From: Erythrobacter sp. CCH5-A1
GTDB taxonomy: Bacteria; Pseudomonadota; Alphaproteobacteria; Sphingomonadales; Sphingomonadaceae
Assembly: GCF_001557115.1 (NCBI RefSeq)
Contig: NZ_LSKQ01000177.1
Location: 5,744-69,743, forward strand
Direction of reading: 5' to 3'
DNA: 64,000 nt
Positions 2,670 through 4,909 of this stretch are shown in pieces; the stretch's first letter is position 1, and each line of letters opens with the position of its first letter. The notes under the pieces were generated by a model, which had not been told where the DNA came from, made no database searches, and was given only the letters and a program-made list of their open reading frames with translations. The position numbers and the translations under genes are program-made.

Positions 2670-4909
2670 TGGCCGACTTCCTGCTCGAACTGCGCTGCGA
2701 GGAAATCCCTGCCCGGATGCAGCCCAAGGCCAAAGAGGATCTGGCGCGGCTGTTCACCGATGCGCTGGCCAAGGCCGGCCTGTCGGCGGGCTCGGTCGAA
2801 ACCTTTGCCACGCCGCGCCGCTTGGCGCTGATCGCCAAGGACCTGCCGCTTGCGACCGCAGCGGTGAGCGAGGAAACCAAGGGGCCGAAGGTCGGTGCGC
2901 CGCCGCAAGCGCTGGAAGGCTTCCTGCGCAAGATGGGCCTCACCGCCGAGCAGTTGACCGAGCGTGACGGCGTCTGGTTCGCGGTCGTGGAGAAGCCGGG
3001 CCGCGAGACCGCTGCGGTGTTGGCCGAAACGATCCCGGCGATCATCCGCGCCTTCCCCTGGCCCAAGTCGATGCGCTGGGGCGCCGCTTCGCTCACCACG
3101 GAAAGCTTGCGCTGGGTACGGCCGCTTTCGGGCATCATCGCCTTGCTCGACGATGCCGTGATCCCTTGCGAAATCGACGGAATCGCGAGCGGGCGCACGA
3201 CAATGGGGCACCGGTTCCACCATTCCGGCCCCGTCGAAGTCGCCAACGCCGGGACCTATATCGAAACCCTGCGCGCAGCACATGTGGTCGTCCACTTCTC
3301 CGAGCGCTGCCGCCTCATCCGCGAGGGCGCCGAACGCGCCGCCACCGAAGCGGGCCTTACGCTTGTCGCCGACGAGGGGTTGGTGGTCGAGAACGCTGGC
3401 CTCACCGAATACCCCGTTCCCCTGCTCGGCCGCTTCGACGAGGCGTTTCTCGACGTGCCGCCCGAAGTCATCCAGCTCACCGCGCGGGTGAACCAGAAGT
3501 ATTTCGTGTGCGAGGATGCGCAGGGCAAGCTCGCCAACGCCTTCGTCTGCACCGCGAACATCGATCCGCTTGACCCCGCTGTGGTGGTCGACGGCAACCG
3601 CAAGGTCCTCGCTGCGCGCCTTAGCGATGCGCGGTTCTTCTGGGAGCAGGACCAGAAGACCCCGCTCGCGGTTCACGCCGAGAAGCTGTCGCGCATCACC
3701 TTCCACGAGAAGCTCGGCACCGTCGCCGACAAGGTCGAGCGGGTGGCGAAGCTGGCGCGCTGGTTGGTTGAAGCTGACATCGTGAAACCAGTCGAGGATA
3801 CCCCGCAGGCCAAGACCAAGCTGTATAATGACGTTCAGAATGCAGCTGCCCTGTGCAAGGTTGATCTCGTTACCGAGATGGTCGGCGAGTTCCCGGAATT
3901 GCAGGGCCTGATGGGCGGCTACTACGCGGCGAAGGAAGGTCTGCCGCAGGAAGTGTCGGACGCGATCCGCGATCACTACAAGCCGGTCGGGCAGGGGGAC
4001 GATGTGCCCACTGCGCCGGTGACGGTGGCGGTGTCGCTGGCGGACAAGCTGGATAGCCTCTGCCAGTTTTTCTTGATCGATGAGGCTCCCACCGGCTCGA
4101 AAGACCCGTTCGCACTTCGCAGAGCGGCAATTGCGGTGATCTCATTGGTCCTTGCAAACTCGCTTCGATTCCGAATGCAGGATGTCCTCCTTAAGGCCGT
4201 CGAGGATGATCAGGAGAAGTTTGAGAAGGTCTTCTTCGGACATACCGAAAAAGGGCTGGGTGCCTTCTTCGCCGACCGCCTCAAGGTCCAGCAGCGCGAA
4301 GCTGGCGTCCGCCACGACCTGATCGACGCGGTCTTCGCGCTCGGCGGGGAGGACGATCTCGTCCGCCTGCTCGCCCGCGTCCATGCGCTGCAGGCCTTCG
4401 TCACCACCGAGGACGGCGCCAATCTCCTCGCGGGCTACAAGCGCGCGGCGAACATCCTCAAGAAAGAGAACTACCTCGTCTCCTCGGCGCAGGCCGGGAC
4501 CCAGAACGAGGGCGCGGAACTGGGTTCCGGCCTGCGCCGGAATGACGGAATTGCACAGACCGGCGAGGAAGACCCGCTCGCCATGGTCGACGATCCCGAC
4601 GTGGGCGACATCCTCGCCGAAGAAGCCCGCGCGCATTCAGCACTTTCCTACACGCCCGAAGAAGCGGAAAAGGCGCTGATCGACGCGCTCGACGCCGCCG
4701 CCCCGCGCGCTGCCGCGGCGGTGGAGGCCGAGAAGTTCGCCGATGCCATGGCTGCGCTCGCCACCTTGCGCGCTCCCATCGACCGGTTCTTTGAAGAGGT
4801 GACCGTCAACGACCCCGACGCGGACAAGCGCGCCGCGCGCCTTGCCCTGCTCGCGCGTTTCCGCGATGCGGTGCACCGGGTAGCAGATTTCAGCCGTATC
4901 GAGGGGTGA
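2669..4909 (+). CDS. glyS: Glycine--tRNA ligase beta subunit with an inserted palindromic element
   Basis: The beta subunit recognises tRNA-Gly. This copy has 746 residues against roughly 690 in Escherichia coli. The extra length lies mainly between GYKRAANILKKENY (about 591-604) and the C-terminal helical region that starts near PEEAEKALIDAL. About 24 of those residues (603-627) are encoded by a 71-bp palindromic repeat that keeps the frame open. N-terminal family features are intact (MADFLLELRCEEIPARM, then the ATPRRLAL block). Parts of the gene (about 3775-3905 and 4060-4260) are clearly less GC-rich than their surroundings. The frame continues normally to VADFSRIEG, so the gene is expected to be functional. 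Confidence 0.95.
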   Translation: MADFLLELRCEEIPARMQPKAKEDLARLFTDALAKAGLSAGSVETFATPRRLALIAKDLPLATAAVSEETKGPKVGAPPQALEGFLRKMGLTAEQLTERDGVWFAVVEKPGRETAAVLAETIPAIIRAFPWPKSMRWGAASLTTESLRWVRPLSGIIALLDDAVIPCEIDGIASGRTTMGHRFHHSGPVEVANAGTYIETLRAAHVVVHFSERCRLIREGAERAATEAGLTLVADEGLVVENAGLTEYPVPLLGRFDEAFLDVPPEVIQLTARVNQKYFVCEDAQGKLANAFVCTANIDPLDPAVVVDGNRKVLAARLSDARFFWEQDQKTPLAVHAEKLSRITFHEKLGTVADKVERVAKLARWLVEADIVKPVEDTPQAKTKLYNDVQNAAALCKVDLVTEMVGEFPELQGLMGGYYAAKEGLPQEVSDAIRDHYKPVGQGDDVPTAPVTVAVSLADKLDSLCQFFLIDEAPTGSKDPFALRRAAIAVISLVLANSLRFRMQDVLLKAVEDDQEKFEKVFFGHTEKGLGAFFADRLKVQQREAGVRHDLIDAVFALGGEDDLVRLLARVHALQAFVTTEDGANLLAGYKRAANILKKENYLVSSAQAGTQNEGAELGSGLRRNDGIAQTGEEDPLAMVDDPDVGDILAEEARAHSALSYTPEEAEKALIDALDAAAPRAAAAVEAEKFADAMAALATLRAPIDRFFEEVTVNDPDADKRAARLALLARFRDAVHRVADFSRIEG
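4477..4547. repeat. REP-like palindromic element inside glyS
   Basis: Arms at 4485-4504 and 4520-4539 are complementary at 19 of 20 positions, with a 15-bp loop. The flanks CGTC (4477-4480) and GACG (4544-4547) extend the symmetry. The right flank reads GGAATGACGG, the usual border of dispersed GTCATTCC-type palindromes. On the minus strand it would read as IPAQAGTQ...GPGLRR, a string I associate with translated dispersed repeats of proteobacteria. Insertion in frame adds about 24 residues to GlyS. Confidence 0.75.

Follow-up and report, generated by a model that had tools for sequence, protein, structure and literature searches.

An in-frame pair of CGTC-tagged REP units in glyS of a sphingomonad, and two GlyS loops recurrently occupied by unrelated palindromic repeats

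Palindromes lying within protein genes may be rare accidents, or they may supply new coding sequence on a regular basis. This question is raised by glyS of Erythrobacter sp. CCH5-A1, an essential gene of a sphingomonad that carries a 71-nt palindrome in frame. The window, i.e., the whole analysed stretch of 64,000 nucleotides, finds its closest named matches in Erythrobacter, Porphyrobacter, and other Sphingomonadales. The start codon of its glyS was chosen by us within a longer ORF, and the frame matches the TIGR00211 profile with 720.5 bits (cut-off 300). Conserved domains flank the insert on both sides, the DALR domain being still present downstream of it. The features are collected in Table 1.

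Table 1. Position of glyS, its two hot spots, and the components of the palindromic insert in the window
Feature	Position	Strand	Remarks
glyS, glycyl-tRNA synthetase beta subunit	2669..4909	+	746 aa, single open frame; TIGR00211, PF02092, PF05746
Hot spot B, residues 369–378, loop between helices 352–368 and 379–395 (model)	3773..3802	+	filled in many relatives
Hot spot C, linker from helix 581–599 to DALR domain (model)	4469..4657	+	residues 605–639 with pLDDT <50
CGTC-tagged REP unit pair, opposite orientation, in frame in glyS	4477..4547		71 nt = 27 + 17 + 27
Left REP unit	4477..4503	+	CGTC, 8-nt stem arm, GCAG loop, stem arm, CCA tail; stem partly decayed
Inverted repeat, left arm	4485..4504
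Inverted repeat, right arm	4520..4539
Right REP unit	4521..4547	-	CGTC, stem 7/8 pairs, GCAG loop, CCA tail

The initial annotation described an in-frame REP-like palindrome within glyS, which is borne out by the structure of its units, by family matches, and by a structural model. The ends it had proposed coincide exactly with two outer CGTC tags, located at 4477–4480 (+) and 4547–4544 (-); the tags point outward and the units lie 17 nt apart. The inverted repeat, claimed to have arms complementary at 19 of 20 positions, was confirmed, with 20-nt arms of 95% complementarity spaced by 15 nt. The stem of the left unit retains 5 of 8 Watson–Crick pairs (read by eye), and its loop and tail are intact. 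As RNA, the 71 nt fold with -53.9 kcal/mol (z -7.4 against 200 shuffles), and the glyS frame reads across them, without a stop, as LVSSAQAGTQNEGAELGSGLRRNDG. The gain in protein length had been put at about 24 residues, and this figure needs correction: comparison with relatives gives nearer +19 net, since the linker has 27 residues in the window and 8 in the relative P0007 (DWRGIEGE, followed by IAQTGEEDPLA as in the window). The occurrence of the same residues in GlyS of distant alphaproteobacteria had been named as a finding that would speak against an insertion; they were not found in five aligned GlyS proteins of other alphaproteobacterial orders, in which the linkers are 54–63 nt long.

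CGTC-1 REPs are defined by a CGTC tag, an 8-bp stem, a 4-nt loop, and a CCA tail, and CGTC REPs occur mostly in alphaproteobacteria (Di Nocera et al. 2013, PMC3733652). Judged from its sequence, the window element fits this family: the tag, the stem with its loop and tail, and the pairing of units in opposite orientation are all present, and the pair with outward tags is taken to be the HH arrangement of PMC3733652. The window contains a second REP-like pair of another family at 61893–61988, with CTGAGCTTGTCGAAG in its arms, which sits between the end of an ORF at 61885 and an apparent gene start near 62000. A 14-nt inverted repeat at 38600–38741, with arms 114 nt apart, is probably due to chance.

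The AlphaFold2 model of the window GlyS, built from 39 sequences, has a mean pLDDT of 89.7, and the poorly predicted segment listed in Table 1, comprising most of the insert and its neighbourhood, is the only one in the protein with a value below 50. Modelling of the inserted segment, proposed in the initial annotation, gives a linker predicted to be disordered, and the location at the junction preceding the C-terminal helical domain, likewise proposed there, agrees with both the domain matches and the model. The first 13 Foldseek matches of the model are all GlyRS entries, with an integrative model titled BUK-SYGB at rank 1 and 7yse of E. coli at rank 3.

The recurrent nature of the site is not visible from the window alone, where loop B carries no palindrome. 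The main sample comprised 199 genomes drawn evenly from the family, of which 194 gave a GlyS match, and 130 GlyS genes were analysed (the 30 best-ranked by the search and 100 picked by hand). They contain 39 strong inverted repeats in 285,045 nt, distributed over 32 genes, six of which are occupied at both sites: 26 repeats lie at B (residues ~371–385), 12 at C (~601–665), and one elsewhere. Five runs of whole-gene codon shuffling of the same genes gave 3, 0, 2, 1, and 2 inverted repeats. Judged by its length, loop B counts as filled in 36 of the 130 proteins, including two (L199 and L256) without a recognisable repeat peptide. The inserts at B and C come from several unrelated repeat families, and among 122 close GlyS proteins both loops hold a changing set of repeat-like peptides.

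A first sample of 52 loci (the window and 51 others; genomes G002 and G008, and possibly more, are common to both samples) gave 27 strong inverted repeats within GlyS (117,675 nt). A further 18 fall in other called ORFs, some of which are shadow ORFs, and 37 lie outside ORFs. One GlyS repeat, at residues 121–149 of L049, lies in conserved sequence, and two cases (L012 and L055) marked a third place near residue 285, which was seen in this sample only and not repeated in the 130 genes. In the flanks of the 52 loci, 292 conserved ORFs (372,899 nt) contain five inverted repeats, of which two or three look repeat-derived by eye, the rest being chance occurrences or shadow frames. The rate in GlyS is about 10 times that in the flanking ORFs (38 in 285,045 nt vs 5 in 372,899 nt, counted in different genomes).

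Other synthetases were compared in 30 genomes, taken from the 32 whose GlyS carries an inverted repeat, with frames picked by mutual similarity and a lowest counted score of 14. Of the 30 ValS genes (85,521 nt), 13 carry inverted repeats, 15 in total (none after codon shuffling), located around residues 455–604 and 663–763 of the raw frames (L281–L310) and coding for clearly repeat-like peptides. AlaS and PheT have two each, in 79,920 and 71,412 nt, respectively (30 genes each; 0–1 and 0–2 in shuffles), all with a score of 14, and none of these four codes for a repeat-like peptide. The idea that GlyS alone is special is ruled out by the ValS repeats. GlyS from 23 loci, nearly all of other alphaproteobacterial orders, contains a single inverted repeat, in Brevundimonas (L073), which is repeat-like. 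From ValS and Brevundimonas it follows that the hot spot is a property of particular loops in some proteins; it is mostly, not strictly, sphingomonad. On a 1.39 Mb Sphingopyxis contig, 27 inverted repeats fall in the 1,104 called ORFs, several of them judged by eye to be chance cases, gene starts, or doubtful frames, and GlyS is the sole ORF with two. The possibility of repeat palindromes being unusually free of stops was rejected: on one Sphingopyxis contig, an average of 3.5 of 6 frames is open in 71 intergenic palindromes and of 3.6 in 710 other intergenic stretches.

Palindromes in frame were also encountered elsewhere. Three long ORFs of a Sphingopyxis contig (L081–L150 joined; 178911–182891, 35384–36652, and 420751–422406) carry palindromes of one family in frame (SSEVE...STSLD), and the gene following glyS in L033 (10539–13382), which we take to be ppdK, has one at residues 732–754 (PVEAPARAALRQAQGE).

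The occupation of the loops turns over. At least 27 changes between filled and empty states of loop B are needed on a FastTree tree made without B and C, a number that tree errors can inflate. With B and C set aside, 81 protein pairs share at least 90% identity; in 37 of these the two loops differ by 12 residues or more (pairs share members and kinship is uncorrected). In the extreme case, P0099 and P0108 are identical in 650 core columns and differ, at the protein level, by a 36-residue peptide at B; this looks like a loss of the insert in P0108, because residues of the usual unfilled form are missing there as well, while a mis-assembly at the hairpin may also account for it. The nearest filled and empty pair for which DNA is available has 93% protein identity in the core. 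It is worth mentioning that loop B of L154 reads IVTPASAGVTKEE, whereas the insert of L165 is complete; the L154 sequence resembles a palindrome that has lost its interior by a deletion preserving the frame.

Copies of the repeats are common in related genomes. The arm pattern is present in 15 of 18 genomes behind the first loci (reversed control 0), and the arm motif in 151 of the 199 family genomes (0 or 1 match of the reversed control per genome). A CGTC-type peptide is found in GlyS of 25 of the 130 genomes; these have a median of 20 arm copies vs 2 in the others (one-sided Mann–Whitney p 3.6e-6, with relatedness uncorrected and the GlyS copies counted in). Genome G067, in whose GlyS (L260) loops B and C are both occupied by a different repeat family, has 118 arm copies of this family and 4 of the CGTC type; the second pair of the window, at 61893–61988, has the arm motif of this family. 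G016, the one genome inspected in this way, makes a weaker case for a source abundant in the genome: on its 1.39 Mb contig, seven matches were found for the B insert of L038, including the two GlyS sites, and for the C insert solely these two. A Y1 transposase as the general driver is unsupported, PF01797 being present in 8 of 30 relatives' genomes.

The explanation considered highly probable is that GlyS tolerates a CGTC-1 pair in a linker that is exposed and disordered, and that loops B and C recurrently take up and lose unrelated repeats. The pair would have landed in the linker through some insertion machinery and would have been retained because it is stop-free and keeps the frame; translated in the cell, it would form a flexible loop and leave the predicted fold intact. 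Linker C and loop B repeatedly accept, and later lose, palindromic repeats across Sphingomonadales; these would be drawn from the families abundant in the respective genome, and near-neutral tolerance would be the reason for the hot spot.

Among the alternatives, targeted insertion, in which the machinery would prefer the DNA of these loops so that site choice and not tolerance would shape the hot spot, is unlikely. It is consistent with the B inserts starting within a few residues of one another (W371–376) and with the dominance of one reading frame of the CGTC units: counted with regular expressions on distinct loop strings, 76 are in the first frame, 11 in the second, and none in the third. 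This bias also counts against the tolerance reading in its plain form, as random insertion would yield it only together with a preferred phase or with selection acting on the peptide, and the absent third frame would be explicable by selection against its peptide or by a preferred insertion phase. Yet several unrelated families occupy the same loops, and ValS is hit too, both of which speak against targeting.

Equally improbable is a selected function, by which the RNA hairpin or the peptide would be useful, e.g., in mRNA stability, pausing, or the tuning of tRNA binding near the anticodon-binding domain. The hairpin in the coding RNA is indeed very stable, and the window-like C insert is common to six related proteins (a search with window residues 594–634 gave these six among 14 candidates, all with the GlyS domain). 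On the other hand, inserts are missing or swapped among near-identical proteins, 98 of the 130 GlyS genes have no strong inverted repeat, and unrelated peptides, in two frames, occupy the same place.

A chance palindrome, or ordinary variation of the linker with no mobile repeat involved, is very improbable: the left stem is partly decayed and the sole further match of the arm pattern in the 64 kb (9899–9918) has 3 mismatches of 20, but each unit has its CGTC tag, GCAG loop, and CCA tail, the motif is widespread in related genomes and nearly absent from the reversed controls, none of 100 linker shuffles reached the inverted-repeat score, and a chance hairpin is ruled out by the linker, codon, and RNA-fold shuffles together. 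An assembly artefact at the hairpin, or a pseudogene, is hardly credible, for although many of the compared contigs are metagenome assemblies and hairpins can mis-assemble, no stop interrupts the frame, the insert is flanked by conserved domains, and related inserts occur in separate records.

A broader extension of the tolerance reading, to which we would give an even chance, is that a few disordered loops, namely B and C of GlyS and those of ValS, act as permanent docking sites for the palindromic repeats currently active in a lineage, which cycle through them. If so, whole peptides of 20–50 residues would continually be gained, exchanged, and lost by these synthetases, and the loops would record the recent repeat activity of the genome. 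One essential gene can here be followed through more than 100 species in which the same places have been filled and emptied repeatedly, which allows a direct test between neutral tolerance, targeting, and use.

The window element itself is a further member of an already published kind of repeat. Intragenic REPs have been reported in tRNA synthetases of X. oryzae, E. litoralis, and S. alaskensis, and in recB of two Xanthomonas a REP lies at about the same site, while in other genes the sites differ (PMC3733652); the sections of that paper examined do not name the synthetase, nor do they describe reuse of the same loop across species. The terms intragenic, synthetase, and in-frame are all absent from the main text of a 2025 REP survey (PMC12306157). 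No account of an insertion hot spot in GlyS or ValS was found in the literature searched, most subscription journals and the gene list of PMC3733652 lying outside its scope. What goes beyond the known family, and did not turn up in these searches, is that unrelated palindromic repeats occupy the same loops of essential synthetases time and again.

As far as the parts of PMC3733652 consulted describe them, CGTC-1 REPs and the window element are alike in the CGTC tag, the stem, the 4-nt loop, the CCA tail, the pairing of units, and the existence of intragenic members. The REPINs mobilised by RAYT, built of GTAG REPs, differ in the tag, which is GTAG there and CGTC in the window. The Neisseria dRS3 element has been equated with CGTC-1 and is found mostly in large clusters (PMC3733652); an N. 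gonorrhoeae record matches the window element over 35 nt at 88.6%, although dRS3 does not lie in glyS. Palindromes in protein genes of Rickettsia go back to Ogata 2000 and 2002 (as cited in PMC10969869), and in-frame Rickettsia palindromic elements (RPEs) are described in that 2024 review. The likeness to them noted in the initial annotation proved closer than resemblance, for RPE-6 of R. conorii has been assigned to CGTC-1, and RPE-4 to CGTC-4 (PMC3733652). As required of an RPE, the glyS insertion is in frame, and the gene product appears to have kept both its frame and its domains. RPE-4, RPE-6, and RPE-1 are likewise palindromes in frame in protein genes; their hosts are Rickettsia and that of the window element is a sphingomonad, and, unlike the RPEs, the GlyS loops are shared by several unrelated repeat families.
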